41,691 nucleotides of DNA from Candidatus Liptonbacteria bacterium (GCA_016204355.1 JACQKT010000010.1:1-41691); one strand, 5' to 3'. Positions 2,027 through 38,104 are shown, counted from the first letter of the stretch. Notes: generated by a model not told the origin, from the letters alone. Numbers and translations: made by a program.

Positions 2027-3688
2027 ATGCAACAAGAAACGCGAACCTGCCGTAACTGCCAAAAAGAATTCGTCCTCGAGCCGGATGATTTTTCGTTTTA
2101 TGAGCGGCTTGATATCCCTCCTTCCGACATGTGTCCTTATTGCCGCTGGAAAAATTTGCTCGCATTCTGGATTTTCGGCAAGTTCCGAATAACCAAGTCC
2201 GCTCTTAGCGGAAAGAATATCATTACCGTATTCCCCGAATCGGTTAAATTCCCGCTGTACGACCATAAAGAATGGGTATCGGATTCTTGGGATCCGCTCT
2301 TGTACGGGCAAGAATACGAGTCAAACAAGCCGTTTTTCGAACAGTTTGCGAAGCTCCAGGCGAATGTTCCGCACCCCCACAGCTCTGGAGTGAACAACTT
2401 CAACTGCGACTGGTCCGACGATACTTGGAATTGTAAAAATTGCTATCTCTCCCGTTCGATGGAGGGATGCGAAGATTTGACTTATTGCTATCGGATACTT
2501 GAAAGCAGGAATTCTATCGACCTTACGTATTGTTTCAATACGGAATCATCCTATGATTGCATGTATTGTTTCAAATGCTTCAACATTCGTTATTCATTCA
2601 ACACGCGTGATTGTATCGATTCTTTTTTCCTCGCGGATTGCCGTAATTGCTCAAACTGTTTTATGTGCTGGAATCTTCGCGGCAAACAATATCATATTTT
2701 CAACAAAGCGTATTCAAAAGAGGAATACTTCGAGAAATTGAAAGAATTTCGTACAAACTCCTATGGCGAAATCGAAAAATTAAAAAAAGAATTCGCGCGC
2801 ATTATAAGAGAAGAAGTCGTTCACAGGGAAAATTTTAATGTACAGACGGTAAACTCAACCGGTAATTTTCTCGATAAGGTCAAAAATTGCCATAACACTT
2901 TTTTCACCAGCGATTCGGAAAATGTAAGAAATTCGTTTAGAGGATGGGAATATAAGGATGTAATTGATTGCGCGGGAAGCATTGCGGAAAAAGCGGCGCT
3001 TTCTGTAATGGACGGTTACATTTATGACTCGGTTTCGACTTTGCGCTGCGGCAATTGCCGCAATATGGCTTATTCCGAATATTGCGAGGATTGCGAATAT
3101 TGTTTCGGCTGCGTGGGCCTTCGCAAGAAGAAATATTGCATTTTGAACAAACAATATACGGAAGACGAGTACAAAACACTTGTAGGGAAAATAAAGAAAG
3201 ATATGAAAGAACGAAAGGAATGGGGCAAGTATTTCCCGATTTCACTCGCGCATTCCGGTTACGATTTTACGCTCGCGCAAATGTTTTTCCCGGAAACAGA
3301 GGAATCGGCGGTGAAATTCGGAGGAAGATGGGAGAGAATATCTTCGCCAAATTATACCGATGCGTTACCCGCCGATTCATTGCCCGACACAATCGGCGAC
3401 GTTGAAGATTCGTCAGTTATCGGAAAACGTATTATCTGTCCCGAAACCGGATTGAGTTACAACATTGCTCCGCATGAATTGGCATTCTACCTCCAGCACG
3501 GAATTCCTTTGCCGCGGCGCCATTTCGACTGGAGGACCATCGAACGTTTCAAGCCGATGACTCTTATGATTTATCCACAACGCGATTTGTGTTTTATTTG
3601 TAAAAAAGAAATCGAGCATTATTATTCTCCCGAATTGGGGTATAAAAAGATTGTTTGTGTCGATTGCTATCAAAAAGAAATCGCATGA
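2027..3688 (+). CDS. Cysteine-rich zinc-ribbon family protein, paralog 1 (unknown function)
   Basis: Starts CRNCQKEFVLEPDDFSFYERLDIPPSDMCPYC; repeated CxxC motifs; two copies of an NLRxKxYxIxNKxYxxEEY-type motif. The C-terminal ribbon lacks most Cys. Confidence 0.9.
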   Translation: MQQETRTCRNCQKEFVLEPDDFSFYERLDIPPSDMCPYCRWKNLLAFWIFGKFRITKSALSGKNIITVFPESVKFPLYDHKEWVSDSWDPLLYGQEYESNKPFFEQFAKLQANVPHPHSSGVNNFNCDWSDDTWNCKNCYLSRSMEGCEDLTYCYRILESRNSIDLTYCFNTESSYDCMYCFKCFNIRYSFNTRDCIDSFFLADCRNCSNCFMCWNLRGKQYHIFNKAYSKEEYFEKLKEFRTNSYGEIEKLKKEFARIIREEVVHRENFNVQTVNSTGNFLDKVKNCHNTFFTSDSENVRNSFRGWEYKDVIDCAGSIAEKAALSVMDGYIYDSVSTLRCGNCRNMAYSEYCEDCEYCFGCVGLRKKKYCILNKQYTEDEYKTLVGKIKKDMKERKEWGKYFPISLAHSGYDFTLAQMFFPETEESAVKFGGRWERISSPNYTDALPADSLPDTIGDVEDSSVIGKRIICPETGLSYNIAPHELAFYLQHGIPLPRRHFDWRTIERFKPMTLMIYPQRDLCFICKKEIEHYYSPELGYKKIVCVDCYQKEIA

Positions 3689-5469
3689 ACCCCGAAACTA
3701 AAATTTGCCAAAATTGCAAAAAAAGCTTTGTTATAAAGCCGGAGGATTTCGATTTTTACGCCAAAATGAAAGTGCCGCCGCCGACATTCTGCCCGGAATG
3801 CCAGATGCAAAGCTTGATGATGTGGCGGAACGAAAGGTCGCTTTATAAGAGAAAAGACGAATCGGGAAAAGAAATTATTTCAATTTTTTCTCCCGATAAG
3901 CCGTTTAAAGTTAACGGAAAAGATTATTGGTGGTCGGACGAGTGGAATCCGCTTGATTACGGCAAGGAGTACGATTTTTCGAAGCCGTTTTTCGTTCAAT
4001 TCAAAGAATTGCTGGAACGCGTGCCGCTGGAGCCGCTTTTTAACAGAAACGCAGTGAATAGCGAGTACTGCAATCATAGCGAAGACATGAAAAACTGTTA
4101 TCTTTCATTCGCTTCCATTTGGAACGAAAATGTTTCTTATTCGAGAGGCGCTATGAAATCCAAGGATTCGCTTGATATCTTTTTCGGCAACAAAGACGAG
4201 CTGACTTACGAAAACATAGGCTGCGAAGAATGCTATCGGGTTTTTTTCAGCAAGTTCTCGTATTCGTGCCGCGATTCTTCTTTTTTGATAAATTGCAGCG
4301 GATGCCAAAATTGTTTCGGATGCGTGAATCTCAGAAATAAGTCCTATTATATTTTCAACAGGCCGTACACAAAGGAAGAATATTCGGAAAAAATAAAGGA
4401 ATTCGATTTGGGCAGTTTTGAAACCCTTAAAAAAATAAAGTCGCAATTGGAAGAATTTTCCAAAAAACAGATATATCGCTACGCGCACATTATTAATTCC
4501 CCGAATTCCACCGGAGAGATTTTATATGACTGCAAAAATTGCAAGTGGTGTTTTGACTTGGTAAACAACTCCGAAGACTGCAAGTATACGGCAAACGGAG
4601 GCTTCAATCTCAAAGACACTTACAACGGTTATGGGGTCGGAGAAGGGGAACTTATGTATCAGGCGATTGATACCGGGCTCGGCACATCGACTGTTTCTTC
4701 CGTGGTTGTTTTACGGAATGGCAGGAACGTTTCTTACGCAGTCAGTTCTTACGGCTCATCGAATACTTTCGCCTCCATCGGTCTCCGCAACAAGCAATAC
4801 TGCATATTGAACAAGCAATACACGAAAGAGGAATACGAAGAACTTCTGCCAAAGATAATAAAGCATATGAACGATATGCCCTACGTAGACTCGAAAGGAA
4901 GAGTATATAAATACGGGGAATTCTTCCCCCCTGAACTCTCTCCCTTCGCGTACAACGAAACAATAGCCCAGGAATATTTCCCGTTAACCAAAGAACAAGC
5001 GGTAACCCAAGGATACAAATGGAAAGAACCCGAACAGAGGAATTACGGCATAACAAAAAAACCGGAAGAGCTACCCGACAACATAAAAGACGTAGACGAT
5101 TCGATTATCAAAGAAATCATCCAGTGTCAGCATATCAGTCCGCCGGCTGGCGGATGCAACGAACAATGCACGCAGGCCTACCGGATAATCCCAGACGAAT
5201 TGTCTTTTTACAGAAGAATGAATCTGGCCCTTCCGAGATTGTGCCCGAATTGCCGCCATTATCAAAGGCTCAAACAAAGGAATCCGCTCAGGCTATGGCA
5301 CGGAAAATGCCAGTGCGCCGGAACAAAATCCGAAAACGGGGCCTACGACAACCAAACCAATCACCAGCACAACGGCAACCATTGCCCCAACGAATTCGAA
5401 ACATCATACGCTCCCAACAGGCCCGAAATAGTTTACTGTGAAAATTGTTACAATAGTGAAGTAGTATGA
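3685..5469 (+). CDS. Cysteine-rich zinc-ribbon family protein, paralog 2 (unknown function)
   Basis: Start trimmed from the ORF-track start 3655 to MNPETKICQNCKKSF, which aligns with the paralogs; ATGA overlap with the stop of paralog 1 (3685-3688). Confidence 0.9.
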   Translation: MNPETKICQNCKKSFVIKPEDFDFYAKMKVPPPTFCPECQMQSLMMWRNERSLYKRKDESGKEIISIFSPDKPFKVNGKDYWWSDEWNPLDYGKEYDFSKPFFVQFKELLERVPLEPLFNRNAVNSEYCNHSEDMKNCYLSFASIWNENVSYSRGAMKSKDSLDIFFGNKDELTYENIGCEECYRVFFSKFSYSCRDSSFLINCSGCQNCFGCVNLRNKSYYIFNRPYTKEEYSEKIKEFDLGSFETLKKIKSQLEEFSKKQIYRYAHIINSPNSTGEILYDCKNCKWCFDLVNNSEDCKYTANGGFNLKDTYNGYGVGEGELMYQAIDTGLGTSTVSSVVVLRNGRNVSYAVSSYGSSNTFASIGLRNKQYCILNKQYTKEEYEELLPKIIKHMNDMPYVDSKGRVYKYGEFFPPELSPFAYNETIAQEYFPLTKEQAVTQGYKWKEPEQRNYGITKKPEELPDNIKDVDDSIIKEIIQCQHISPPAGGCNEQCTQAYRIIPDELSFYRRMNLALPRLCPNCRHYQRLKQRNPLRLWHGKCQCAGTKSENGAYDNQTNHQHNGNHCPNEFETSYAPNRPEIVYCENCYNSEVV

Positions 5470-9211: not shown

Positions 9212-11005
9212 ATGGGTTCCGAAACGCGAAATTGTCAAAACTGCAAACAAAACTTCATCATCGAACCGGAAGATTTCGATTTCTACAAAAAAATAGATGT
9301 CCCGCCGCCGACATTTTGCCCGGAATGTCGTTTGCAGAGACGGCTTGTTTGGAGAAACGAAAGAGCGCTTTACAGGCGAAAATGCGACGCGCCCGGCCAT
9401 TCGGAAAAATTAATTTCTTACATCGCTCCGGAAAAACCGCAGTCGGTTTATGACCAGCGTTATTGGTGGTCCGATGATTGGGATCCATCGTCTTACGGCA
9501 AAGAATATGATTTCTCAAAACCATTCTTTGTCCAATTCAAAGAATTACTTGACGTCGTGCCGCGTTCCAGTCTGTCAACCAACTACAGCACCATTATTAA
9601 CAGTGAGTATTCGAATTGGGGAGGCGATTTAAAGAATTGTTATTTGGTGACAGATGCCGATTATGTTGAAGATTCCGGCTATTCGTCGACTATTTTCAAG
9701 TCCAAGGATTGTTACGAATGCAATGCGGTTTCCGAATCGGAACTCTGTTACGAAAGTTTTAATCTTTTGAAATGTTATCGGACAGTCGGCTCAATTAATT
9801 GCCAGGGATGTTCCGATGTCTGGTTCTCAAAAAATTGCAACGGATGTGCAAACTGCTTCGGATGCGTAAATCTTCGGAATAAATCTTATTGTATTTTCAA
9901 CGAACAGTACTCCAAAGAAGAATATTTCAAAAAAATCAGCGAGTTTCATGGAGAACGCAAAGGGGCATACGAATTGCTTAAAAAACGGGCTCAGGAATTT
10001 TGGGCAAGTTTACCGGAACGCCACAGCCGGGGGTACGGCAATGTTAACGTAAGCGGCGATTACATCTATCATTCAAAAAACACAAAGTACGGATTTCTTG
10101 CTTCCGATGTGGAAGACAGTAAATACGTTTCACTTATACATTCGCTGAATACCAAGGATTGTTTCGATTACACGGACTGGGGAGAAAATGCCCGTCTTTT
10201 GTACGAGTGCATAGCTTGCGGATTGGGTGCTTCTAATTTGAAGTTTTGCAATCTCGTTGTTCTTCAATCAAAAGATTCGGCATACAGTTATTTTTCTTAC
10301 AACTGTTCCGACATTTTCGGCTGCGTGAATATGAGAAAAAAGCAATATTGCATTTTAAATAAACAATACGCAAAAGAGGAATATGAAAATCTGCTTCCGA
10401 AAATAAAAAAGCATATGGACGAAATGCCCTATATGGACAAAAAGGGCAGGGTATACAAATACGGCGAATTTTTCCCGCAGGATATCTCACCGTTTACTTA
10501 CAACGAATCAGTTGCGCAGGAATTTTTTCCTCTTACCAGAGAAGAAGCAGAACAGAAAGGGTATTCTTGGCGTGAGCCGGATGAAAAAAGTTATGTCGCA
10601 ACAAAAAAGGTAACGGAAATTCCTGAGATCATTGATGGCATTGATGATTCGATTACAAAAGAGGTTATTGAGTGCGAACATGAAGGGAAGTGCAACCAGT
10701 CCTGCGCTACGGCGTTCCGAATTATCCCGGCCGAGATTCAATTCTACCGCAAGATGAAATTGCCGCTTCCACATTTGTGCCCGAATTGCAGACATTACGA
10801 AAGATTAAAACATCGTAATCCGTTAAGGCTCTGGAAGCGATTTTGTACGTGTAAAGGCAAAGAAAGTGTGAACGGTATCTATAAAAACACAACTTCGCAT
10901 TCTCACGGCGATAATCAGTGCCCTAATGAATTTGAAACGTCTTTTTCGCCGGAGCGCCCAGAAATCGTTTATTGTGAACGGTGCTACAATTCAGAAATTA
11001 TATGA
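9212..11005 (+). CDS. Cysteine-rich zinc-ribbon family protein, paralog 3 (unknown function)
   Basis: CQNCKQNFIIEPEDFDFYKKIDVPPPTFCPEC; CxxC-rich middle; C-terminal CPNCRHYERLKHRNPLRLWKRFC and YCERCYNSEII. Confidence 0.92.
   Translation: MGSETRNCQNCKQNFIIEPEDFDFYKKIDVPPPTFCPECRLQRRLVWRNERALYRRKCDAPGHSEKLISYIAPEKPQSVYDQRYWWSDDWDPSSYGKEYDFSKPFFVQFKELLDVVPRSSLSTNYSTIINSEYSNWGGDLKNCYLVTDADYVEDSGYSSTIFKSKDCYECNAVSESELCYESFNLLKCYRTVGSINCQGCSDVWFSKNCNGCANCFGCVNLRNKSYCIFNEQYSKEEYFKKISEFHGERKGAYELLKKRAQEFWASLPERHSRGYGNVNVSGDYIYHSKNTKYGFLASDVEDSKYVSLIHSLNTKDCFDYTDWGENARLLYECIACGLGASNLKFCNLVVLQSKDSAYSYFSYNCSDIFGCVNMRKKQYCILNKQYAKEEYENLLPKIKKHMDEMPYMDKKGRVYKYGEFFPQDISPFTYNESVAQEFFPLTREEAEQKGYSWREPDEKSYVATKKVTEIPEIIDGIDDSITKEVIECEHEGKCNQSCATAFRIIPAEIQFYRKMKLPLPHLCPNCRHYERLKHRNPLRLWKRFCTCKGKESVNGIYKNTTSHSHGDNQCPNEFETSFSPERPEIVYCERCYNSEII
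10364..10470 (+). repeat. 107-bp direct repeat, copy 1 (identical to 21064-21170)
   Basis: caatacgcaaaagaggaatatgaaaatctgcttccg...ggtatacaaatacggcgaatt is identical at both positions; flanks diverge immediately. Confidence 0.93.
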
Positions 11006-12777
11006 ACAACGAAGCAAAAATCTGCCAGAACTGCAAAAATCAGTTCACAGTCGAACTGGAAGATTTCGATTTCTACAAAAAAATAGACGTTCCGCCGCCG
11101 ACGTTTTGTTTCCATTGCCGGCTTCAGCGCCGCATGGCGTGGCGGAACGAGAGCGGTCTTTATAAAAGGGAATGCGACTTATGCAAAAAAACTGTCTTTT
11201 CAATGTATCCGGCAAAAGCCCCGTTCCCCGTGTATTGCCACGACTGCTGGTTCTCCGATAACTGGGACCCGATGCGATACGGGCGCGATTACGATTTCTC
11301 GAAAAATTTTTTTGCGCAGTTCGATGAATTGCAGCAGGTAGTCCCGCGCATCGCCCTTCAGGTCGAAAATATGGCGAATTCCGACTATTCCAATCAGGCA
11401 TTGGAATGCAAAAATTGCTATTTGGTCATTTCCGCGCTCGGCAACGAGGACAGCATGTTTTCTTACCGGCTGCTTTATTCAAGAAATGTCCTTGATTCTT
11501 TCGCGATTACGAAATGCGAGATCGTCTATCAGGGATTAATGGGGCGCGAGTCGTCGAATATATTTTTTTCTCGGGGATTCGCGGATTCCCACGAGCTTTA
11601 TTTTTGCGAAGAGCCGAGAGGGTCTCAATATTGTTTCATGTCCGCGAATCTTAGGCGCGGATCGTACGTTTTCAGGGGAGAACGGCTGACCAAGGAGGAA
11701 TATAAAAAAAGGTTTAAAGATGTCGATTTCGGTTCTCATGAGGCGACGGGAAAGTTAAAGGAGGAATTCGCCGCGATGGCTGAAAAAGCGATTCATCCCC
11801 ACGGAACATTCAAAAATGTCGTTAATACTACGGGTAATGCGATAGTGAATGCGAAAAACTGCCGCTATTGTTTTCACGGATCAAATATAGAAAACTGCCA
11901 TTACTGTTTTTTGGTTGACGACGCGAAAGACTGCATGGATATGAATAACGGAGGGCATGGTATGGAGCTCGTTTACGAAATGAACACGGTAGGAGCCGCT
12001 GCTTTCAATTCGAAATTTTGCAGCGATGCATGGCCTGACGTAATCAATCTTACCTATTGCGATTCATGCCGCTCAAGAGCAAGAAATCTGTTCGGCTGTA
12101 TATCTTTGCGCGCGAAAGAATATTGCATTTTGAACAAACAGTATACGAAAGAAGAATACGAAGCATTAATCCCGAAAATAATCGAACAAATGAATTCAAT
12201 GCCATATGTCGATAAAAAAGGAAGGATTTATAAATACGGAGAATTTTTCCCTGCGGAATTGAGCCCGTTCCCATACAACGACAGCATGGCACAGGATTTT
12301 TTCAAATTAACCGCCGACGAAGTGCGGACCCAGGGATTTCGCTGGGTCGAAACTCCGAAAAGTGTGAATGCAACAATAATGCCGGAAGCGCTGCCGGATA
12401 ACATCAAGGATATCGAGAACAGGATAACAAAAGAAATAGTGGGATGCGCGCATGCCGGAAAATGCAATGATCGCTGCACAGTCGGCTTCAGAGTCACGCC
12501 GAGAGAGATGGTTTTTTATAAAAAATATAATCTTCCTTTGCCCCGGCTTTGCCCGAATTGCCGCCACTTCGAACGTCTCGGACGAATAAATCCTCTGAAT
12601 TTATGGCGCAGAAAATGTCAGTGTGCCGGAAAAACATCCGAAAGCGGAGATTACGGCAATTTGGCAATGCATTTCCATAATGAGGAACATTGTCCAAACG
12701 AATTCGAAACATCATACGCTCCCGGCAGGTCGGAGATAGTTTATTGTGAAAGTTGCTACAATTCAGAAGTAGCATGA
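11002..12777 (+). CDS. Cysteine-rich zinc-ribbon family protein, paralog 4 (unknown function)
   Basis: Start trimmed from 10981 to MNNEAKICQNCKNQF; ATGA overlap with the stop of paralog 3 (11002-11005). Confidence 0.9.
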   Translation: MNNEAKICQNCKNQFTVELEDFDFYKKIDVPPPTFCFHCRLQRRMAWRNESGLYKRECDLCKKTVFSMYPAKAPFPVYCHDCWFSDNWDPMRYGRDYDFSKNFFAQFDELQQVVPRIALQVENMANSDYSNQALECKNCYLVISALGNEDSMFSYRLLYSRNVLDSFAITKCEIVYQGLMGRESSNIFFSRGFADSHELYFCEEPRGSQYCFMSANLRRGSYVFRGERLTKEEYKKRFKDVDFGSHEATGKLKEEFAAMAEKAIHPHGTFKNVVNTTGNAIVNAKNCRYCFHGSNIENCHYCFLVDDAKDCMDMNNGGHGMELVYEMNTVGAAAFNSKFCSDAWPDVINLTYCDSCRSRARNLFGCISLRAKEYCILNKQYTKEEYEALIPKIIEQMNSMPYVDKKGRIYKYGEFFPAELSPFPYNDSMAQDFFKLTADEVRTQGFRWVETPKSVNATIMPEALPDNIKDIENRITKEIVGCAHAGKCNDRCTVGFRVTPREMVFYKKYNLPLPRLCPNCRHFERLGRINPLNLWRRKCQCAGKTSESGDYGNLAMHFHNEEHCPNEFETSYAPGRSEIVYCESCYNSEVA

Positions 12778-12982: not shown

Positions 12983-15355
12983 ATGGCTTTGTATCTTTTA
13001 CTTGCCCTGCTTGCCGTAGCGGCAGGAATAGGAATTTACTTTATAACGAAGTTTTTGGCGAAAAGGCGGTTGCGCGACTCCCTGCAGATGGTTCTTTTGT
13101 CGGTGCGGATACATAAGGACATCGCCGCGGAAACACAGGCCGATGATTTCAAAAAAGAAATCAATCTTACAGAACAGCTCTTAACAAACCTCGCTTCATT
13201 CAGACGCCCATTCGTTCTCGAGCTTGCGGTCCCGCACGTCGGCGAAGAAATCCAGTTCTATCTTTCCGTTCCGCGCCAGCTAAAGGAAGTTGCCGCGAAA
13301 CAAATTCAGGGATTGTGGACAAGCGCTTCTGTAGACGAAGCCGGCGACGATTACAATATTTTCAATCCGCACGGCGCGACTGCGGCCGCTTATCTCAAAC
13401 AGCAGGAAAATTACGCTTTGCCTATCAGAACATACCTCGAAATCGGCAACGATTTTTTTTCGGCGATAGTCGGCGGCTTGTCGAAGATGAACGAGATAGG
13501 AGAGGGGGCAGCGATACAAATCATCGCTTCGCCGGCGGCAAAAGATGTTAAAAAAGGCATCGAATCGAAAATCAGGAGTTTGAAGCGCGGCGAACCTGCC
13601 AAAAAAGTCCTTGGCAGCGGTTTCGGCGCGGAAGTAAAAGAAATCCAAGAAGCATTCAAAACAAAAAGTAAAGAAGAAAAGGAAAAAGAAAAAGAGGAAA
13701 AAGTGATTGACGAGGAAGCCGTGAAAGCGCTGACCGCAAAAATTTCAAAACCACTTTTTAACGTAAACGTCCGGATTCTCACCTCTGCGCCGAGTCCGTT
13801 CCAGGCGAACGATATCCTCGAGGGCATCGCCGCCGGATTCAGTCAGTTCGGAAGTTCCATGCGGAACGACTTCAGAATCGTGAAAGCAAAAAATTCTTCC
13901 GGCCTCGCATACGAATTCAGTTTCCGGACTTTCAACGGCAGCCAGTCCATGGTTTTGAACAGCGAAGAAATAGCGAGCTTTTATCATTTTCCGATTTCAT
14001 CCACCGAAACGCCGCGCGTGAAATGGCTGAAATCGAGGGAAGCCCCGCCGCCATCGAACCTGCCGGAAAAAGGAGTTCTTGTGGGCAGAAGTGTTTTTCG
14101 CGGACAGCAAAAAGACATTTACATAACAGACGACGACCGCCGCCGGCACGTTTACGTTGTCGGGCAGACGGGCACGGGGAAATCCACCTTGCTCGGCAAC
14201 ATGATTATCGATGACATCAGGAAAGGAAAAGGAGTTGCCATAATAGACCCTCACGGCGACCTTGCCGAAAATGCCTTGAGCTACATCCCGCCGCAAAGAA
14301 TGAATGACGTTATTTATTTCGACCCCGGCGACATACAGCGCCCGCTCGGCTTGAATATGCTCGAGTACAATTTCAATCGCCCAGAAGAAAAAACGTTCAT
14401 AGTCAATGAAATGCAGGGGATATTCAACAAACTTTTTCCGCCGGAAACGATGGGGCCGATGTTCGAGCAATATATGCGAAACGCCCTTCTTTTGCTGATG
14501 GAAGATATGCCGAATGAACCCGCGACGCTCATTGAAATGCCGAGGATTTTCACCGACGGTGAATACAGAAGACGCAAGCTCGAGCGTGCCCGCAATCCGG
14601 TCGTCATCGATTTTTGGGAAAAAGAAGCCGCAAAGGCAGGCGGGGAAGCTTCTCTTGCCAACATGACGCCTTATATAACTTCCAAATTCAATAATTTCTT
14701 TTCGAATGATTACATGCGCCCGATAATCGGCCAGCCGAAATCCGCTTTCAATTTCAGGCAGGTCATGGACGAAGGAAAAATTCTTCTGATAAATCTTTCC
14801 AAAGGCAGGATTGGCGACATAAACGCCGGGCTTCTCGGAATGATTTTCGCCGGCAAGCTTTTGATGGCCGCTTTGTCGCGAGTCGATATTCCCGAAATCG
14901 AAAAGCGGCGCGATTTCAATTTATACATCGACGAGTTCCAGAATTTCACCACCGATTCCATCTCGACGATACTCTCGGAAGCGCGTAAATACCGGCTCAA
15001 TCTGACAATGGCGCATCAGTTCATTGCGCAGCTGACAGAAAAAATCCGCGATTCGGTTTTCGGCAACGTCGGCTCGCAAATCGTTTTCCGCGTCGGCGTT
15101 CAGGACGCCGAGTTTCTCGAAAATCAATTCCAGCCGGTTTTCGACAAAAACGACCTTATAAATATCGATAACTTCAACGCTTATGCAAAAATACTAATCA
15201 ATGGCGAGACTGCGAAGCCGTTCAATCTCCAGACGCTTCCGCCGGAACGCGGAAACCGTGAGCTTATCGAACAGCTGAAGGAGAAATCCCGTCAGGAATA
15301 CGGCGCCGACCGGCAGGAAACAGAGGATTCGATCTACGAGAGGCTTAGGACCTGA
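12983..15355 (+). CDS. HerA/VirD4/TraD-like DNA-translocase family ATPase with N-terminal TM segment
   Basis: Walker A VGQTGTGKSTLLGNMI; Walker B-like GVAIIDPHGDLAE; NLYIDEFQNFTTDSI; ARKYRLNLTMAHQFIAQL. Confidence 0.85.
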   Translation: MALYLLLALLAVAAGIGIYFITKFLAKRRLRDSLQMVLLSVRIHKDIAAETQADDFKKEINLTEQLLTNLASFRRPFVLELAVPHVGEEIQFYLSVPRQLKEVAAKQIQGLWTSASVDEAGDDYNIFNPHGATAAAYLKQQENYALPIRTYLEIGNDFFSAIVGGLSKMNEIGEGAAIQIIASPAAKDVKKGIESKIRSLKRGEPAKKVLGSGFGAEVKEIQEAFKTKSKEEKEKEKEEKVIDEEAVKALTAKISKPLFNVNVRILTSAPSPFQANDILEGIAAGFSQFGSSMRNDFRIVKAKNSSGLAYEFSFRTFNGSQSMVLNSEEIASFYHFPISSTETPRVKWLKSREAPPPSNLPEKGVLVGRSVFRGQQKDIYITDDDRRRHVYVVGQTGTGKSTLLGNMIIDDIRKGKGVAIIDPHGDLAENALSYIPPQRMNDVIYFDPGDIQRPLGLNMLEYNFNRPEEKTFIVNEMQGIFNKLFPPETMGPMFEQYMRNALLLLMEDMPNEPATLIEMPRIFTDGEYRRRKLERARNPVVIDFWEKEAAKAGGEASLANMTPYITSKFNNFFSNDYMRPIIGQPKSAFNFRQVMDEGKILLINLSKGRIGDINAGLLGMIFAGKLLMAALSRVDIPEIEKRRDFNLYIDEFQNFTTDSISTILSEARKYRLNLTMAHQFIAQLTEKIRDSVFGNVGSQIVFRVGVQDAEFLENQFQPVFDKNDLINIDNFNAYAKILINGETAKPFNLQTLPPERGNRELIEQLKEKSRQEYGADRQETEDSIYERLRT

Positions 15356-17087: not shown

Positions 17088-18182
17088 ATGATACGCTATT
17101 TAAGCAAAGCATCGCCGAAAAACTTAAAGGGAACAGCTGTTTTGCGGCTCGATTTCAACACTAAGGACGAATGGCGCATGAGGGCGGCATTGCCGACAAT
17201 ACGCCTTTTGCTGAAACATTCCTCGAAAATAGTCATATTGAGTCACAAAGGCAGGCCGAAAGGCGCCGAAAAAAAATTCAGCCTGAAAAGGGATGCTGCA
17301 AAACTCGGGAGGATGCTCGGCAAAAAAATAATATTCCTTGCCGGTCCCGATTTTTCGAAAGTAGAAAAAGCGATAGCTGAAACCAGAGCGGGCTCGGTTT
17401 TGGTCATTGAAAATCTCCGTTTTGTAAAGGGAGAAAAGGAAAACGACAAAAAATTCGCCAAGAAACTCGCTTCGCTCGGGGATTTTTACGTCAACGACGC
17501 CTTCGCAGTTTCTCACAGGAAAAACGCTTCAGTCGCAGCCATAACCGGTTTTTTGCCGAGTTTTGCCGGCCTGGAACTTGAAAGAGAAGTTAAATTGCTA
17601 TCACGCGTGATAGCAAAGCCCAAAAAGCCATTGGTGATAGTTTTGGGCGGCGCTAAAGCCCACGATAAACTCGGAGTACTGAAGCGTTTCAGGAAAAAGG
17701 CGAGTTGGTTTCTTTTGGGGGGAGCGGCGGCGAACACGCTGCTTTTATTGAGAGGAGTCGATGTCAAAGATTCGCTTGTCGACAAAGAAAAAAAGGATAT
17801 CAGTAATCTCCGCCGGGTTGCCGGTTATCGGAATGTTGTTTTGCCCGTTGACGTAAAATTCGGCAACGGCAAGATTTTGGATATAGGTGGGATGACCTCA
17901 TTCGTCTTTTCCGGAAAGTTGAGTAAAGCGGGGACTGTGATATGGAGTGGCCCGATGGGGGTTTTTGAAAAAAAGGAGTTTTCTTTCGGAACGCTCGCTG
18001 TGGCAAAAGCGATAGTCGGAAATAAAAAAGTTTTTTCAGTCGCCGGTGGTGGGGAAACAGTAATGTTTTTGAAAAAATACAAACTCGACAAAAAATTCAG
18101 TTTTATATCAACCGGCGGGGGAGCCATGCTCGATTTTCTGGCGGACGAAAAACTTCCGGGGATCGAAGCGCTGAAAAAATGA
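17088..18182 (+). CDS. pgk: Phosphoglycerate kinase
   Basis: LRLDFN...RMRAALPTIRLLL; ILSHKGRPKG; VIENLRF; FYVNDAFAVSHRKNAS; GGAKAHDKLGVL; WSGPMGVFE; GGGETV; STGGGAMLDFL. Confidence 0.95.
   Translation: MIRYLSKASPKNLKGTAVLRLDFNTKDEWRMRAALPTIRLLLKHSSKIVILSHKGRPKGAEKKFSLKRDAAKLGRMLGKKIIFLAGPDFSKVEKAIAETRAGSVLVIENLRFVKGEKENDKKFAKKLASLGDFYVNDAFAVSHRKNASVAAITGFLPSFAGLELEREVKLLSRVIAKPKKPLVIVLGGAKAHDKLGVLKRFRKKASWFLLGGAAANTLLLLRGVDVKDSLVDKEKKDISNLRRVAGYRNVVLPVDVKFGNGKILDIGGMTSFVFSGKLSKAGTVIWSGPMGVFEKKEFSFGTLAVAKAIVGNKKVFSVAGGGETVMFLKKYKLDKKFSFISTGGGAMLDFLADEKLPGIEALKK
17595..17616. repeat. 22-bp perfect palindrome within pgk
   Basis: TTGCTATCACGCGTGATAGCAA equals its reverse complement. Confidence 0.8.
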
Positions 18183-19903
18183 ATTCTGAAACGAAAGTAT
18201 GTAAAAACTGCAAAGCCCCGTTTGCAATAGACGCTCAAGACCTCGATTTTTACAAAAAATTCGATGTTCCGGCGCCTTTAATATGTTTGCTTTGCCGGGC
18301 CCAGCGTAGACTTATGTTCCGCAACGAGCGCGTGTTTTACAAGCGGCCGTGCGATAAGTGCAAGCATAGCGTGATTTCAATGTACAGTCCGAACAAAATC
18401 TATCCGGTTTGGTGCTACGAATGCTGGTTTGCCGACGATTGGGATGCCACGGAATACGGCCAGGATTACGACCCTAAAATTTCTTTTCTGGAACAAGTCC
18501 GCAAGGTGTATCAAAAAGTTCCCAAAGTGGCGTTGATTTATGTTCGCAGTGTCAATTCCGAATACGTGAATATTTCGGCGGACAACAAGGATTGCTACAT
18601 GCTTGTGGAATCATCCAACAACGAAAGCTGTATCCATTCGTACTGGGTTCAGCAGTGCCGCGATTCGGTAGACCTTTCGTTTTCCCATCAAACAGAATTG
18701 GCCTATGACAGCGACGACTGCTATAACGGCTACAAACTTCTTTACAGCAAAGGATGCCACGATTGCCGCGATTCGTATTTTCTTTACGACTGCAGGGGAT
18801 GCAGCGACTGCATCGGCTGCACCAACCTGCGCAATCGCCAATACTATGTTTTCAACAAACCTCTGGGCAAAGAAATGTACGAGAAATTTTTAGCGGAAGC
18901 GCGCCTCGACATGGCGAGCGGGGTTGAAACGATGCGCAAAAAATTTGATGAGTTTATTGCCGGTCAGCCGAGGAAATACGCGGAAATCGTGAATGCCCCC
19001 AGTTCGTCCGGAGGATACATCGCCGATGCCAAGAATTGCCGCGAATGTTTCCATTGTTACGATGCCGAAGACTGCGCGTACGGAGAACACGTTTGGAGAA
19101 GCGCGAAAGATTGCATGGATGTCAGCACTGCGGGCCGTAACGCGAACATGATATATAATTCCATCAACACCGGCATCGACGTATCGAATCTTATCTGTTG
19201 CGCGCAAGGATGGAGTTCCACATTTCTCGAGTACTCCTTAAATTGTTTTAATTCCAACCATTGCTTTGGTTCGGCGGGATTGCGCAAGAAAGATTATTGT
19301 ATTTTGAACAAACAATATTCGAAAGAAGAATATGAGAAGTTGCGGGGGAGTATCGTAAGCGAGATGAGGGCGAAAGGAAAATATGGCGAGTTCTTCCCGT
19401 CTTCGTTGAGTCCTTTCGGGTATAACGAAACAGTTGCGCAGGAACAGTTTCCTCTCACAAAAGAAAAGGCCGCGGAGTTCGGATTCGGCTGGGAAGAATA
19501 TCCGCGAGGCACATATGGAAAAGAAACGGCGCAATGGAAAGACATTCCGGATTCAATACGGGATTTTCACACCGCCGACATAAACAAAGAAATTTTTGTC
19601 TGCGCGAACTGCAAGAAAAACTACCGCATTATTCCAGCGGAATTGCAGTTTTATCAGCGGTTGGATATACCGCTCCCGAGAGTTTGCCCCGATTGCCGGC
19701 ATGACCGGCGTATGGCCGCGCGTGGCCCGGCCAGGCTTTTTGATTCGCAGCAATGCCGGTGCGATTATCAAATATCGCAAAATACCGCAATACACAGCCA
19801 TCATCCAGAGGGCAGATGTCCGAACTTTTTTCGTTCGAATTACCGCCCAGATGCCTCAGAGATTTTGTATTGCGAGGCCTGTTACAACGCCGAAGTGGCG
19901 TAA
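18179..19903 (+). CDS. Cysteine-rich zinc-ribbon family protein, paralog 5 (unknown function)
   Basis: CKNCKAPFAIDAQDLDFYKKFDVPAPLICLLC; many CxxC; C-terminal YCEACYNAEVA; ATGA overlap with the pgk stop (18179-18182). Confidence 0.92.
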   Translation: MNSETKVCKNCKAPFAIDAQDLDFYKKFDVPAPLICLLCRAQRRLMFRNERVFYKRPCDKCKHSVISMYSPNKIYPVWCYECWFADDWDATEYGQDYDPKISFLEQVRKVYQKVPKVALIYVRSVNSEYVNISADNKDCYMLVESSNNESCIHSYWVQQCRDSVDLSFSHQTELAYDSDDCYNGYKLLYSKGCHDCRDSYFLYDCRGCSDCIGCTNLRNRQYYVFNKPLGKEMYEKFLAEARLDMASGVETMRKKFDEFIAGQPRKYAEIVNAPSSSGGYIADAKNCRECFHCYDAEDCAYGEHVWRSAKDCMDVSTAGRNANMIYNSINTGIDVSNLICCAQGWSSTFLEYSLNCFNSNHCFGSAGLRKKDYCILNKQYSKEEYEKLRGSIVSEMRAKGKYGEFFPSSLSPFGYNETVAQEQFPLTKEKAAEFGFGWEEYPRGTYGKETAQWKDIPDSIRDFHTADINKEIFVCANCKKNYRIIPAELQFYQRLDIPLPRVCPDCRHDRRMAARGPARLFDSQQCRCDYQISQNTAIHSHHPEGRCPNFFRSNYRPDASEILYCEACYNAEVA

Positions 19904-19911
19904 TTTACGCA

Positions 19912-21717
19912 ATGAACTCCGAAACCCATTCAACAGACTCAGTGCAAGCCTGCCAGAGTTGCAAACAAAACTTCATCGTTGAACCAGAAGACTTCGAATT
20001 CTACAAAAAAATAGACGTCCCGCCGCCGACTTGGTGCCCGCTTTGTCGCAATATGAGGCGCGAAGCTTGGAGAGAAAGTCATTTATTGTATCGCAATACC
20101 TGTAAATTATGCGGCAAGTCCGTTGTCGGCATTCATCCGGCAGAAGACCGGTTTGTCGTCTATTGCCGCGAGTGTTGGTATTCGGACAAATGGGATTCAT
20201 TGGATTACGGGCTGGATTATGATTTCAACAAACCATTTTTTCTGCAATACCGGGAACTTATGGAAGCTGTTCCAAGGCCGGCAATGACCGGCACAAGCAT
20301 CGTAAACAGCGATTTTTCACACGCCTGCGTAAGTTGCAAAAACTGCTATTACACTTTTTGGAGTTTATTTTCCGAAGATTCACAAAATTGCTTCGCGCTC
20401 CTTTTTTCGCGGAACGCATATGATTCCTACGTCACGGATAATTCAGACCATGCTTACGAAACACTTCACTGCAATCGCTTGTATAAAGTGCGTTTCGGAT
20501 ATTTCGCCGATAATTGTTTTGATTCCTCTTTTTTATTTGATTGCGTGGGGTGCTCCGATTGTTTTGGCTGCGTCAATATCCGCAAGCAAAAATATTGTAT
20601 TTTCAATAAAAAACTCTCCAAAGACGAATATTTGAAACAAATGGAATATTGGGACTTGGGAAGTTACAAACGGCTCGAAGAAGCCAAAGAAAAATTTCGC
20701 GCCCTCTATCTTTCTCTTCCGCGTCGCTACGCCCATATTATCAATAGCCAGAACGTTACCGGCGACATAATAAGGGATTCGAAAAATTGTAAATCATGTT
20801 TTTCTGCGCTTGATGACGTTCAAAATTGTAAATATCTTTTTTTCGGCGGTTTAAGTCTCAAAGACAGCTACGATGTAACCGGCGGGGGAGACATGTCGGA
20901 GCTTATGTACGAAATCTTCGGAGTCACGCGTTCGCAGCGGGTTTTTTTATCCGCTGGCGGAGGAAATTCGCAAGATGCCGCCTACTGCAATTGGATCGAG
21001 AATTCGTCCATGCTTTTTGGATGCATACGCTTAAAAAACAAAAAGTACTGTATTTTGAACAAGCAATACGCAAAAGAGGAATATGAAAATCTGCTTCCGA
21101 AAATAAAAAAGCATATGGACGAAATGCCCTATATGGACAAAAAGGGCAGGGTATACAAATACGGCGAATTCTTTCCAACGGAACTTTCGGCTTATCCATT
21201 CAATGATTCGTGGGCGTTCACTTTCAGCCCGAAAACCAAAGAAGAAGTGATTTCGGAGGGATGGAAATGGCGCGAACCGCAAGAACACTCCTATAAAATT
21301 TCTTTGGAACCGGAAAATCTACCTGACCATATTCGCGACGTTTCCGACGATGTTTTGAAAGAAATAATAGGCTGTATTCACAAAGGCGGGTGCAATGAAC
21401 GATGCACTTCAGCTTTCCGGCTTACTTCGGAAGAATTGGCGTTTTATCGCAAAATGAATGTTGCCCTGCCACGTTTGTGTCCAAATTGCAGATATTCCCA
21501 GCGTTTGCAATGGCGAAATGGCTATAATTTGTGGAGACGAAGCTGTATGTGCGAAGGAAAACAAAGCACAAATGGTAAATCGCGAATGTCATATACAAAT
21601 ACATCGGTTCACTTTCACGGCGACGGTTCCTGCCCGAGCGAATTTGAAACAACTTTTTCTCCGGAGAAACCGGAAATAATTTACTGCGACCAGTGCTATA
21701 AAGCGGAATTTCTATGA
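19912..21717 (+). CDS. Cysteine-rich zinc-ribbon family protein, paralog 6 (unknown function)
   Basis: Start trimmed from 19753 to MNSETHSTDSVQACQSCKQNF; C-terminal CPNCRYSQRLQWRNGYNLWRRSC and YCDQCYKAEFL. Confidence 0.88.
   Translation: MNSETHSTDSVQACQSCKQNFIVEPEDFEFYKKIDVPPPTWCPLCRNMRREAWRESHLLYRNTCKLCGKSVVGIHPAEDRFVVYCRECWYSDKWDSLDYGLDYDFNKPFFLQYRELMEAVPRPAMTGTSIVNSDFSHACVSCKNCYYTFWSLFSEDSQNCFALLFSRNAYDSYVTDNSDHAYETLHCNRLYKVRFGYFADNCFDSSFLFDCVGCSDCFGCVNIRKQKYCIFNKKLSKDEYLKQMEYWDLGSYKRLEEAKEKFRALYLSLPRRYAHIINSQNVTGDIIRDSKNCKSCFSALDDVQNCKYLFFGGLSLKDSYDVTGGGDMSELMYEIFGVTRSQRVFLSAGGGNSQDAAYCNWIENSSMLFGCIRLKNKKYCILNKQYAKEEYENLLPKIKKHMDEMPYMDKKGRVYKYGEFFPTELSAYPFNDSWAFTFSPKTKEEVISEGWKWREPQEHSYKISLEPENLPDHIRDVSDDVLKEIIGCIHKGGCNERCTSAFRLTSEELAFYRKMNVALPRLCPNCRYSQRLQWRNGYNLWRRSCMCEGKQSTNGKSRMSYTNTSVHFHGDGSCPSEFETTFSPEKPEIIYCDQCYKAEFL
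21064..21170 (+). repeat. 107-bp direct repeat, copy 2 (identical to 10364-10470)
   Basis: See copy 1; offset exactly 10,700 bp. Confidence 0.93.
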
Positions 21718-30276: not shown

Positions 30277-32004
30277 ATGGAATTCAAGAAAGAACATCTG
30301 TTATATTTTGGATCTAGTGGCAGATTAGTGAGGGTTCTCGGAAGAGAATCAATCTCTAACCCGAATATTGCGTTAATAGAAGCTGTTAAGAATGCCTACG
30401 ACGCCGATGCAAAAGAAGTAAATATTTCTTTTGAAGAGATAAAAGCTCATCATGGAGGGAAAATCATCATCAGTGACGATGGAACCGGTATGACAGAAGA
30501 GGATATTAGAGATCGATGGATGACGACGGCAACTGATAATAAATTACATGAACCTTTCACTAAAAAATATAAGCGTCGCAAGATTGGTGAAAAAGGTATC
30601 GCAAGATTTGCGTTTTCCACACTGGCACAAGCACTCGAGCTTATTACAAAACCAGCAGGGGCGACAAAAGGTTATAGGTTATTCATCGACTGGAACAGGT
30701 TTGATGAAGAAGGTGCTTCTTTTGAGAAAACACCCGTTGACTTCAAGTCTTCTAGTAAGAAGAAAGCCGAACACGGCACTACTATTACATTATCAGGTTT
30801 ACGGCAGAGATGGGATAAGGAGCTTCTTGAGAAATTTATCCGTGAAGCAGAACTGATTACTCCGCCAACTTCAAAGCCGGATAACTTTGGGATTAGTGTA
30901 CATGTTCCAGATTTTCCTGATATCGGCGATCAGAGATTAAGTAGTAGATTCCTGAGGGTCGCGCCTTATTATTTCGAGGCTAAGCTTGATGCAGAAGGAT
31001 ACCTTCAATACCGGATCAAAACTCCCAAAGGAAGTAAAAAATACTCAAAAATAAAAACCACAAGGTATTCGTGTGGGCCTGTGGATTTTAATTTTTGGTT
31101 TCTGCCAAGAGATAAGGGTCTCTACGATCGGTTGGGCGTAAGTCTGCAGGGTATACAAGTAGATGAGATAAAGAAATTTCTGGATGACTGGGGAGGTATA
31201 AAACTTTATCGCGATAACTTGAGAGTTAAACCATATGGTGATTCAGGAAATGATTGGCTGAAGCTTGATTCTCTAAGAGTGGATAGCCCCAGTATTATTC
31301 CAGACAATACACTAGTTTTTGGTTATGTACGGATTAGCCAAAAAGGCAACTCAGCAATAGTTGATACATCAACACGAGAAGGTGTAGTAGATAACGTCGA
31401 GTTCCGCGATCTTCGGCAGTTTGCAATAGACGGAGTTAAATTTTTTGGCACTGTAAGAAGGGCTGTTGAAGACAAAGGAAAGCATAAAAGAGAAGGAAAA
31501 GGACAAAAGAAATCAAAAACATTAAAAGAAGTGTTGCCAAAGTCAATCGTACCCAAACCGCGACAGACATTCATTGATTTTGGCAAAAAATATCCTGAGA
31601 TTTTCTATTTTAAGTTAGAGGACGAAATTAACATTGCTTTCCAGTATAATCTCCCTAACGCCGTGCTTATGCTTGTTAGAAAAGTAATAGAGAATCTAGT
31701 CTATAATCTTATGGAAGAAAGATTCTCAAGCGAAAAAGATTTGCGATGGGACACAAGAAGGAACCGGCCACTGGAATTTAGTAAATTAGTATCTAGTCTT
31801 TCGGATAGAGCTTCTTCTTTTGATGGAGAACAAAAAGGACTTGTATTAAAAGCTATTTCGTTGATAGGCCGCTTCAGGAGAGAAGCTAATTTAAATACGC
31901 ACCAAATTATTGATTACCTTGATGATCGTAGTGAATTAAAAACCCTCAAGATACCTGACATTATTGAACTTTTGTTAAAACTTATCAGAAAAAACCGAGA
32001 ATAA
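30277..32004 (+). CDS. GHKL-fold ATPase (MORC/MutL/HSP90-like) of an RM-like module
   Basis: IALIEAVKNAYDADAKEVNISFEE; ISDDGTGMTEEDIRDRWMTTATDNK; RRKIGEKGIARFAFSTLA. Confidence 0.85.
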   Translation: MEFKKEHLLYFGSSGRLVRVLGRESISNPNIALIEAVKNAYDADAKEVNISFEEIKAHHGGKIIISDDGTGMTEEDIRDRWMTTATDNKLHEPFTKKYKRRKIGEKGIARFAFSTLAQALELITKPAGATKGYRLFIDWNRFDEEGASFEKTPVDFKSSSKKKAEHGTTITLSGLRQRWDKELLEKFIREAELITPPTSKPDNFGISVHVPDFPDIGDQRLSSRFLRVAPYYFEAKLDAEGYLQYRIKTPKGSKKYSKIKTTRYSCGPVDFNFWFLPRDKGLYDRLGVSLQGIQVDEIKKFLDDWGGIKLYRDNLRVKPYGDSGNDWLKLDSLRVDSPSIIPDNTLVFGYVRISQKGNSAIVDTSTREGVVDNVEFRDLRQFAIDGVKFFGTVRRAVEDKGKHKREGKGQKKSKTLKEVLPKSIVPKPRQTFIDFGKKYPEIFYFKLEDEINIAFQYNLPNAVLMLVRKVIENLVYNLMEERFSSEKDLRWDTRRNRPLEFSKLVSSLSDRASSFDGEQKGLVLKAISLIGRFRREANLNTHQIIDYLDDRSELKTLKIPDIIELLLKLIRKNRE

Positions 32005-32009
32005 TATCT

Positions 32010-33014
32010 ATGGTTGTTAAAAATGTCATAGATCTTTTTTGCGGCGCGGGAGGGATGAGTGCCGGTTTCCGGAAAGCCGGCTTCCGCATACTACTCGGCA
32101 TTGACATAAATCCAGCATACCTAGCGACATTTGCAACCAATCATCCCGAAGCCAAAGCTGTATGCGAAGATATAGTCGGAGTAAGTGGCACAGAAATAAA
32201 AAAACTTTTAGGAGAGAAAAAGGTTCATGTTGTCATTGGCGGTCCACCGTGCCAGGGATTTAGTATAGCAAGAGCAAGGAAAAGAAATCCAAAAGATCCT
32301 CGTAATAATATGCCACAGGAATTTCTGCGTATAGTCGCTAAAATACGTCCAGAGTGGTTCGTTTGCGAAAATGTTGTTGGTATATTATCAGCAAAGTTGT
32401 CTGATGGTACATTAGTGAAAGATAAATTCATAAATACAGCTAGAAAAATAGGCTATAAGTCAGAATATAGAGTCTTGGATGCTTCAAATTTTGGCGTGCC
32501 CCAAGCACGGAGACGAGTTGTTTTTATAGGCACCCGCCTTAACAAACCAATTATATTTCCATCAGGCAATAATATTAGAGCAGTTATATCTTCAAAAATT
32601 CTATTAAAGAAACAGCTAATAGATCAGAAGTACTTTTTTTCTAGAAAACTTATCAAAGGGTTTCGCCGTAGAGAAAAAGAAAACAGAAAGCGCGGGCTTG
32701 GATTTAGATGGCAATTTATAAAAGTAGGTTCTCCTTCATATACTATCCCTGCCCGCTACTATAAAGACGGAGCTAATGCACTTGTTAGATATAATGACAA
32801 GTCAATAAGACGATTAACTGAAATTGAATGTGCAAGAATTCAGGGGTTTCCAAAGGATTATATTTTCTTAGGAAGTAAACGAGGGGTTTACCAAAAAATC
32901 GGAAACGCCGTACCGCCACCCTTGGCGGCGGCCATTGCTAAAAATTTATACGCAACACCAAGAAACGCAACTAACGCTTCAAAATCTTTACAAGCTTTGA
33001 GAGTATCTGGTTAG
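32010..33014 (+). CDS. DNA (cytosine-5)-methyltransferase
   Basis: VIDLFCGAGGMSAGFRKAG (motif I); VIGGPPCQGFS (IV); WFVCENVVGIL (VI); GVPQARRRVVFIG (VIII); QGFPKDYIF...IGNAVPPPLAAAI (IX-X). Confidence 0.96.
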   Translation: MVVKNVIDLFCGAGGMSAGFRKAGFRILLGIDINPAYLATFATNHPEAKAVCEDIVGVSGTEIKKLLGEKKVHVVIGGPPCQGFSIARARKRNPKDPRNNMPQEFLRIVAKIRPEWFVCENVVGILSAKLSDGTLVKDKFINTARKIGYKSEYRVLDASNFGVPQARRRVVFIGTRLNKPIIFPSGNNIRAVISSKILLKKQLIDQKYFFSRKLIKGFRRREKENRKRGLGFRWQFIKVGSPSYTIPARYYKDGANALVRYNDKSIRRLTEIECARIQGFPKDYIFLGSKRGVYQKIGNAVPPPLAAAIAKNLYATPRNATNASKSLQALRVSG

Positions 33015-35441: not shown

Positions 35442-36971
35442 ATGAAAAAAGGAACAGTGGGAGGCGCCCCCGTTAAACTGTCCTCCAAGAACATTATCCG
35501 GCTGATAAAAACAGGTAGCGGCAGATTCTGGTCCGGCCTGAGAGAAAAAAAAGCGCTGGATTTGTTCCACAAAGCGGTGAGGCGTGTGCCCGCGTACAAG
35601 GATTTTTTGAGGAAAAACAGAATTTCACCGGAAAAGATAAAGAATTTTTCCGATTTCCAATTTGTTCCCGTTACGGACAAAAAAAATTATCTGAGGCAAT
35701 ATCCGCTGAAAGATCTGTGCTGGGACGGAACACTCGAAAGACCGTATGTATTCACTTCGACTTCCGGCTCGACCGGCGAGCCGTTTTATTTTATGCGCGG
35801 CGAGCGCCTTGACTGGGAGTCTTCGCTCATACACGAACTTTTTCTTCTCAATTCGAGAAGAAAAAAAGGGCCGGTTTTGGTAATCGTCGGCTTCGGGATG
35901 GGAGTCTGGATAGGCGGACTGATAACTTACAAGGCTTTTGAAATAGCCAGCCGCGGCAAAGATTATCCCGTTTCCATAATCACGCCGGGAATAAACAAAA
36001 TAGAAATTCTGAACGCGCTGAAAAAACTTTCGCCGCAATTCGCGGAAACGATAATCGCCGGATACCCGCCGTTTTTGAAAGATATCGTGGACAGCGCCGC
36101 CGAAGAAAGAATCAATCTCAAAAAATTGAACGTGCGCCTGCTGTTCGCCGCCGAGCCGTTCACTGAAAACTTCCGCGACTACGTAGTTAAAAAAGCGGGT
36201 GTGAAAAATCCGAATTTAGACACTTTGAACGTATATGGAACGGCTGAAATCGGGACAATGGCTTACGAAACGCCAACGAGCATAATGATGCGGCGTCTCG
36301 CGGTCAAAGACAAAGAGCTTTTCCGGGATGTTTTTTCGAACATAGAAAAAACTCCAACGCTCGCGCAGTACAATCCGTTTTTTGTAAATTTCGAGGCGCC
36401 GGAAGGAGAAATCCTGCTGACGGGAGACAATTCAATTCCGCTTGTCCGGTATGCCGTCGGCGACAGGGGAGGAGTTTATGGGTTTGATGAAGCTTCTCCT
36501 ATTTTTAAAGCAAATGGATATGACCTCGAAAAAGAATCCCGCAAAAATTCACTAAAAGAAATTTATAAACTTCCTTTCGTTTATGTTTATGAAAGGATTG
36601 ACTACTCAACGACGTTATACGGGCTTCAGATATATCCCGAGGCGATTCGGGAAGCACTTTTAAAGAAAAATCTTAACGGATTTTTTACGGGCAAGTTCAC
36701 TATGATAACCAAATTCGACAAACACCAGGACCAATTTTTGGAAATAAATCTGGAGCTAAAAAAATCCAAAAAGGCTGAAGAAAGCCTGAAAAAGAAAGCT
36801 CTTAAAGAAATAATTATTATGCTTCGTAATAAAAATTCCGAATTCAGGGAACTCCACAGCTATCTTGGAAAACGCGCCATCCCAAAACTTGTTTTTTGGG
36901 AATATGAGCACCCTCTCTTTTTCAAGCAGGGAGTAAAACAGAAATGGGTCAGGAAAAATTATAAAAAATGA
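35442..36971 (+). CDS. Phenylacetate-CoA ligase-like (PaaK-like) adenylate-forming enzyme
   Basis: YVFTSTSGSTGEPFYF (P-loop-like STSGSTGEP); VYGTAEIGTMAYE; GEILLTGDNSIPLVRYAVGDRGGVYGF. Confidence 0.8.
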   Translation: MKKGTVGGAPVKLSSKNIIRLIKTGSGRFWSGLREKKALDLFHKAVRRVPAYKDFLRKNRISPEKIKNFSDFQFVPVTDKKNYLRQYPLKDLCWDGTLERPYVFTSTSGSTGEPFYFMRGERLDWESSLIHELFLLNSRRKKGPVLVIVGFGMGVWIGGLITYKAFEIASRGKDYPVSIITPGINKIEILNALKKLSPQFAETIIAGYPPFLKDIVDSAAEERINLKKLNVRLLFAAEPFTENFRDYVVKKAGVKNPNLDTLNVYGTAEIGTMAYETPTSIMMRRLAVKDKELFRDVFSNIEKTPTLAQYNPFFVNFEAPEGEILLTGDNSIPLVRYAVGDRGGVYGFDEASPIFKANGYDLEKESRKNSLKEIYKLPFVYVYERIDYSTTLYGLQIYPEAIREALLKKNLNGFFTGKFTMITKFDKHQDQFLEINLELKKSKKAEESLKKKALKEIIIMLRNKNSEFRELHSYLGKRAIPKLVFWEYEHPLFFKQGVKQKWVRKNYKK

Positions 36972-38101: not shown

Positions 38102-38104
38102 AAA

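Follow-up and report, generated by a model that had tools for sequence, protein, structure and literature searches.

What are the six paralogous proteins with cysteine-rich central repeats that are encoded in a 41,691-nucleotide stretch of the genome of a Candidatus Liptonbacteria bacterium (GCA_016204355.1 JACQKT010000010.1:1-41691; hereafter, the window), how are they built, and what might they do? We concentrated on the second paralog, P2 (3685..5469, on the plus strand, as are all the window features listed below), whose gene encodes 594 amino acids (aa) followed by a stop codon. An earlier inspection of the sequence alone (the original prediction) had proposed that terminal zinc ribbons (ZnR) flank two related modules, the entire ZnR-module-module-ZnR layout being a product of duplication. 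Self-similarity tests and AlphaFold2 models confirm the layout, and all the motifs cited in its favor are found in P2; the accompanying interpretation is supported as well, with two points, the duplication of the ribbons and the right-handedness of the solenoids, weaker than claimed. Considering also the genomic context and the divergence pattern of the family, we suggest, with the chances close to evenly balanced, that these are cytosolic, metal-stabilized recognition proteins that form a single working system together with a soluble VirD4/HerA-type ATPase.

The internal symmetry was assessed with a profile of 124 full-length relatives (set A2), which was split into pieces that were compared with one another, profile to profile, using hhalign; because E-values for single pairs are not calibrated, 60 column shuffles per pair served as controls. 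Module A aligns with module B with a score of 214.7 over 127 columns (shuffled maximum 19.1), and the finger pair of the N-terminal end aligns with that of the C-terminal end with a score of 110.2 over 74 columns (shuffled maximum 18.5); ribbon-versus-module cross-comparisons are at the chance level, 12-17.5. Thus, the two modules are homologous to each other, and so are the two ends. The layout was tested on the two points that could have overturned it, and both came out in its favor: self-similarity is present, and the halves do not have unrelated folds.

In P2, solenoid A (4030..4323; aa 116-213) consists of 12-residue coils in which a small residue or cysteine recurs at intervals of three between C138 and C213, and is followed by closing signature A (4324..4392; aa 214-236, the NLRNKSYYIFNRPYTKEEYSEKI region), a predicted beta cap and helix; solenoid B (4471..4782; aa 263-366) is a tandem copy of solenoid A with a less regular phase, followed by closing signature B (4783..4860; aa 367-392, the GLRNKQYCILNKQYTKEEYEELLPKI region), both modules ending in the cap and helix signature [N/G]LRxKxYxIxNxxYxKEEY. 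The autocorrelation of module A peaks at 12 residues (z=7.3, with harmonics at 24 and 36) and again at 3; 1214 of the 1250 cysteines of this module (97%) fall in one of the three phases, and small residues account for 77% of the positions in phase vs 21% off phase. In P2, every third residue from C138 onward reads CSSNVSASSIGDTNCCVSSCSLCCCC. In module B, the phases slip and the periodic signal is weaker than in module A. Cysteine makes up about 8% of the solenoids and is often replaced by S, V or T at the same phase. In the AlphaFold2 model of P2 (predicted local distance difference test, pLDDT, 91.6; predicted template modeling score, pTM, 0.91), the strands are spaced approximately 12 residues apart in both modules, and the same spacing of about 12 is seen in the model of a two-module relative (L120), the solenoid cores of which have pLDDT of 91-96. 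Judging from the periodicity and the models, each module is a beta-solenoid in which the coil comprises 12 residues, and cysteines together with small residues form a ladder pointing inward, so that the prediction of a solenoid for the central repeats is borne out.

The predicted right-handedness is weaker than claimed because Foldseek gives a significant match in neither direction: the weak matches of the P2 model are mostly left-handed helices and those of L120 mostly right-handed ones, and a search of PDB with both models yields nothing at E<=1e-3 (template modeling score <=0.14 by query length). A BFVD search likewise gave no match for the solenoid. Among known proteins, the closest geometry appears to be that of the hyperactive antifreeze protein TmAFP of a beetle, a right-handed beta-helix of 12-residue TCTxSxNCxxAx repeats (PMC8038014) with C2-C8 disulfides: the family shares with it the coil of 12, an inward residue at every third position (out-in-out-out) and the richness in Cys, Ser and Ala. 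However, sequence kinship is not detected, TmAFP is not among the listed Foldseek matches of the family models, the TCT ice-binding rows are absent from the family sequences inspected, and the family proteins have no signal peptide, with zinc ends that are cytosolic; the resemblance is best regarded as an analogy of geometry rather than kinship. Pentapeptide-repeat and left-handed hexapeptide proteins are likewise repeat-built beta-solenoids and are Foldseek neighbors at the weakest level, but their coils comprise 20 or 18 residues, in contrast to the coil of 12 with a triplet phase in this family.

Each end of the family proteins comprises two treble-clef fingers, in the order zf_Tbcl (PF13451), zf_Tbcl_2 (PF23477/TIGR04272); the notion of one ribbon per end therefore stands with regard to the presence of ribbons at both ends but not to their number. 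The fingers were identified via standalone relatives of 99-105 aa that match both models above the cutoffs. The order and the spacing of the two fingers (CxxC...CxxC, then CxxC-x17-CxxC) are the same in small standalone zf_Tbcl plus zf_Tbcl_2 bacterial proteins, and the standalone Patescibacteria proteins of this type match both the N-end and the C-end profiles of the family; unlike these, the family has a finger pair capping both ends of a two-solenoid protein, and P2 itself matches neither model and has lost the ligands of one finger. In P2, N-terminal finger 1 (3700..3819; aa 6-45) is zf_Tbcl-like, with C8, C11, C36 and C39; all four cysteines are retained in 124/124 relatives, and the finger is modeled as strand-strand-helix-helix with pLDDT of 95-97. 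N-terminal finger 2 (3820..3933; aa 46-83) is zf_Tbcl_2-like and degenerate in many relatives, P2 among them: the ligand cysteines are lost in P2, retained in paralogs 4-6, and present in 49-79% of the relatives. The N-end of paralog 6 scores 24.6 bits with PF13451 (above the cutoff of 24) and 21.1 bits with PF23477 (below the cutoff of 27). A helical linker (3934..4029; aa 84-115, SDEWxPLxYGxxYDFSxPFFxQFxELxxxVP) leads into solenoid A. C-terminal finger 1 (5119..5274; aa 479-530), with C481, C495, C520 and C523 conserved in 90-98% of the relatives, is recognized by its profile match to the N-end, and in C-terminal finger 2 (5275..5460; aa 531-592), C542, C567, C585 and C588 are retained in 99-100%, and C544, H560 and H562 in about 74%. 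Given that the ligand cysteines are 90-100% conserved in three of the four fingers, the ends are predicted to bind metal, namely, zinc. In a BFVD structure search, the fingers align to viral zinc-ribbon proteins (probability 1.0, root mean square deviation 0.7, 40 columns).

The claim that the proteins were built by duplication holds for the modules but is weaker for the ribbons. Proteins with a single module (L121-L125; about 240 aa) can be aligned with both modules, and two-module proteins without ribbons (L120, L126) adjoin a separate gene for a ribbon protein of 104-105 aa; because such forms exist, we conclude from sequence comparison that the module pair arose by tandem duplication. The ribbons, for their part, are mobile, occurring as standalone genes, in split loci, in ATPases and in module-module-ribbon variants of 423 aa with one C-terminal ribbon pair, found beside an extra standalone ribbon gene (L222:642, plus strand; L224:1216, minus strand). 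An origin of the ribbon pair by internal duplication gains no support over separate recruitment: the N-end profile gives a median of 49 bits with the ribbons of the C-end, which does not exceed the 64 bits obtained with the standalone neighboring ribbon protein of a split locus, so that the second, C-terminal ribbon pair may as well have been recruited separately as copied internally. The single-module proteins have in common an N-terminal stretch, FGxxNPxSLxxFxxKxAFDxxLPxEVxDSxTGExTWAxSxN, that has no match in Pfam or NCBIfam.

A scan of GTDB detected at least 473 stretches encoding the family, and among the 78 loci kept, it is found only in Patescibacteria: the titles name Patescibacteria lineages or unnamed bacteria, bar one "Burkholderiales" bin. 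The two loci of the latter (L059, L063; JAMPXW010000002.1) encode the family among Patescibacteria-like neighbors, and the bin is probably mislabeled. Full-length members are present in 29 of the 380 sampled genomes of the phylum, including that of the window. The family is previously undescribed: searches of Pfam and NCBIfam with the whole of P2 gave no relevant match, a sequence search of PDB gave only chance-level matches (the UBR1 finger, E 0.13), no PADLOC model of an anti-phage defence system matches P2, L122 or L120, and no paper on the family was found in the open-licence literature searched; the modules thus have no relative in Pfam, NCBIfam, PADLOC or among solved structures. Some GenBank records may label such proteins "Caib/baif family", a name for which no paper was found either. 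A mobile-element origin is not supported, the single IMG/VR match being weak and partial. Long tandem arrays are common, with 21 matches in one genome (G135), 18 in another (G252) and a maximum of about 21 per genome. These genomes have shed most genes, and a family kept in so many copies presumably pays its way.

The genomic context of the family genes is dominated by VirD4/TraG/HerA-like ATPases, which are encoded next to them in 42 of the 134 loci (the next most common family, in 11) and number 1-4 per genome. In the window, such a gene (12983..15355; 790 aa, with one N-terminal transmembrane-like stretch) adjoins paralog 4 and scores above the cutoff with PF01935, PF02534, PF10412 and PF12696. 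The linked ATPases form a subclass of 690-795 aa, which, at its lower edge, is set apart from other ATPases by reading-frame length rather than by the small difference in bit score (615 vs 600 bits). In 9 of the 11 genomes tested, the subclass gene and a family gene share a strand and are separated by 31-364 bp, the ATPase usually being the last gene of the run (two family genes, then the ATPase); random placement predicts 0.07 such adjacencies (p ~5e-20, relatedness ignored). Among the 379 genomes other than that of the window, the 25 that encode the subclass are exactly the 25 genomes outside the window's class that encode full-length family members (Fisher p=4e-36, also ignoring relatedness). 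This co-occurrence reflects more than shared ancestry because related genomes within GTDB family f83, and likewise within the genera g249 and g85, carry either both the ATPase subclass and the family or neither. Three separate forms of the family are linked to the ATPase, namely, the full-length proteins, the split ZnR plus two-module proteins (L120/L202, L126) and the single-module proteins, the genes for which, in 5/5 loci, directly adjoin that of the ATPase or, in one case (L125), form a fusion with it. A single origin of the linkage is not indicated: the tree requires at least 7 label changes, some of which stem from contig ends and the distance cut-off.

Several ATPases of the window's class themselves carry a finger. 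The ATPase beside the second family cluster of the source genome (L185:826-2619, minus strand; contig C14 of G000) contains a PF23477 finger (62.5 bits), and in this protein and three others (L184, L187, L194), a finger of the zf_Tbcl_2/TIGR04272 type follows the ATPase domain; such zf_Tbcl_2-bearing VirD4-like ATPases are found also in genomes that lack the solenoid family. In several genomes, at loci such as L015 (2233-3675 and 4261-5754), the ATPase is apparently split into an N-terminal gene of about 460 aa and an ATPase gene of about 500 aa.

The linked ATPases resemble both VirD4/TraG coupling proteins and HerA/CedD-like translocases, having the T4SS-DNA_transf/TraG-D_C domain and matching T4SS-DNA_transf, TrwB_AAD_bind, DUF87 and TraG-D_C along with HerA, TraD and CedD profiles; among PADLOC models, they show a weak match to mad8/HerA, as expected from a common ATPase fold. 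They differ from these proteins in scoring far below the NCBIfam equivalog cutoffs and, unlike true coupling proteins, the subclass lacks the N-terminal membrane anchor, which is absent in 16 of the 18 linked ATPases and present in the window copy and in L202. Neither type IV secretion system (T4SS) channel genes nor a relaxase are prominent among the recurrent neighbors, which were clustered rather than searched with T4SS profiles. According to a study of Patescibacteria (PMC12102498), only 148 of the 5,713 VirD4 homologs of these bacteria are located near virB4; the homologs, being mostly away from it, are possibly exapted, and the study leaves their function open. The sections consulted do not mention the solenoid family. 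The exact co-occurrence reported here offers a handle on the role of such virB4-unlinked homologs.

The divergence of the family runs in opposite directions between and within genomes. When G135 is compared with its congener G377 (12 pairs of orthologs), identity is 96% in the solenoids vs 83-86% in the ribbons, and the solenoid is the better conserved part in 12/12 pairs; in other genome pairs, some of which share a genome, this is the case in 9/10, 7/9, 2/2, 2/3 and 2/2. The pooled ratios of nonsynonymous to synonymous substitution rates (dN/dS) are 0.03 and 0.05 for the solenoids, on a par with the housekeeping controls, and reach 0.09-0.12 in the ends. Among paralogs within a genome, the order is reversed in 6/6 genomes, with 27-35% identity for the solenoids and 41-62% for the ribbons. 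The dN/dS of 0.03-0.05 argues against an arms race or antigenic variation of the solenoids, and gene conversion is unlikely to underlie the conserved ends, given that the ribbons of within-genome paralogs are only 41-62% identical. Comparison of these sequences yields a pattern that would be expected from separate, long-lived specificities combined with shared docking ends, and solenoids that diverge most among paralogs, yet are the best conserved part of orthologs, lead to the prediction of a single partner for each paralog.

We therefore envisage the two tandem solenoids of P2 as a putative private binding surface that varies from paralog to paralog but stays constant across species, and through which each paralog would bind one fixed partner, be it a protein or a nucleic acid. 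The ends that the paralogs have in common (the zf_Tbcl/zf_Tbcl_2 fingers and the NKQYxKEEY caps) would dock all of them to a single machine, probably the ATPase, and the latter would then move or remodel the bound partner. A cytosolic location is supported by the anchorless ATPases and by the absence of transmembrane-like stretches in the family proteins (0/113). A bolder version, to which we assign a distinctly lower, though appreciable, probability, is that of a novel machine of Patescibacteria in which a soluble VirD4/HerA-like motor is served by up to about 20 interchangeable zinc-capped recognition proteins, each reading one fixed partner via its solenoid with the 12-residue cysteine ladder; if it exists, the role of some of the orphan Patescibacteria VirD4 homologs would be accounted for.

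Several observations weigh against the recognition scenario. The family has no enzymatic signature; the contrast between orthologs and paralogs would fit dedicated effectors or enzymes as well, and the dN/dS values come mainly from a single pair of congeners, for which dS is often as high as 0.6-1.0. The ATPase partner is not one strict ortholog because, in the window's class, other subclades stand in the linked place, one with a transmembrane segment. Furthermore, one genome (G266, an assembly of 180 contigs) has family fragments without the subclass ATPase, and three genomes among the 25 (G343, G310, G046) encode the ATPase on a contig for which no family gene is listed.

The strongest competitor, which we nevertheless consider rather unlikely, is that the family proteins are cargo, that is, effectors with active solenoids, whose zinc ends are recognized by the VirD4-like ATPase for delivery via a T4SS into a host or partner cell. 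Substrate recruitment is a function of VirD4-type coupling proteins, T4SS are present in Patescibacteria (PMC12102498), and large arrays of paralogs with constant ends and variable middles do adjoin such an ATPase; however, effectors that face a host do not usually evolve as slowly as housekeeping genes, as the solenoids do, a membrane anchor is missing from the linked subclass, the small share of VirD4 homologs near virB4 speaks against export, and zinc-finger ends with unpaired cysteines suit the reducing cytosol. Slightly less probable still are nucleic-acid-binding regulators or repair factors, with the fingers and solenoids binding DNA or RNA and the HerA-like ATPase as a DNA translocase partner. 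Treble-clef fingers often bind nucleic acids, the ATPases match HerA/DUF87, TraD and CedD profiles, and tandem paralogs with private, conserved specificities would fit such a role, but the family matches no known DNA- or RNA-binding domain in Pfam or NCBIfam, and no nuclease or relaxase is prominent among the recurrent neighbors. Finally, a role of these cysteine-rich proteins in buffering metals or thiols, or as scaffolds with a solely structural function, the ATPase linkage being incidental, is improbable: the high cysteine content, the inward phase of the module A cysteines and the many zinc sites predicted from conserved ligands would suit such a role, but a private, strictly conserved surface for each paralog would be needless, the linkage is well above chance, and the in-phase replacement of cysteine by S, V or T is what core packing would permit.

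The six paralogs of the window form three touching pairs. Paralog 1 (2027..3688; 553 aa), which has lost the C-terminal CxxC, overlaps P2 by the 4 nucleotides of an ATGA at 3685; P2 starts with the ATG at 3685 and stops at 5467-5469; a start at TTG 3655 would give only a longer version of the same frame. Paralog 3 (9212..11005; 597 aa) and paralog 4 (11002..12777), the latter directly upstream of the ATPase gene, share an ATGA at 11002, and paralog 6 (19912..21717) begins 8 bp past paralog 5 (18179..19903; 574 aa). The source genome (694 kb, 28 contigs, 90% complete) encodes 11 copies of the family, which occupy about 3% of it.

Two other gene groups of the window were identified by eye. At 30277-33014, a gene for a GHKL-type ATPase is immediately followed by a gene for a DNA cytosine-5 methyltransferase, possibly a restriction or defence pair, and at 35442-39148, three touching genes appear to encode acyl-CoA/AMP ligase-, ThiF/E1- and nitroreductase-like proteins that might constitute a small modification cluster.

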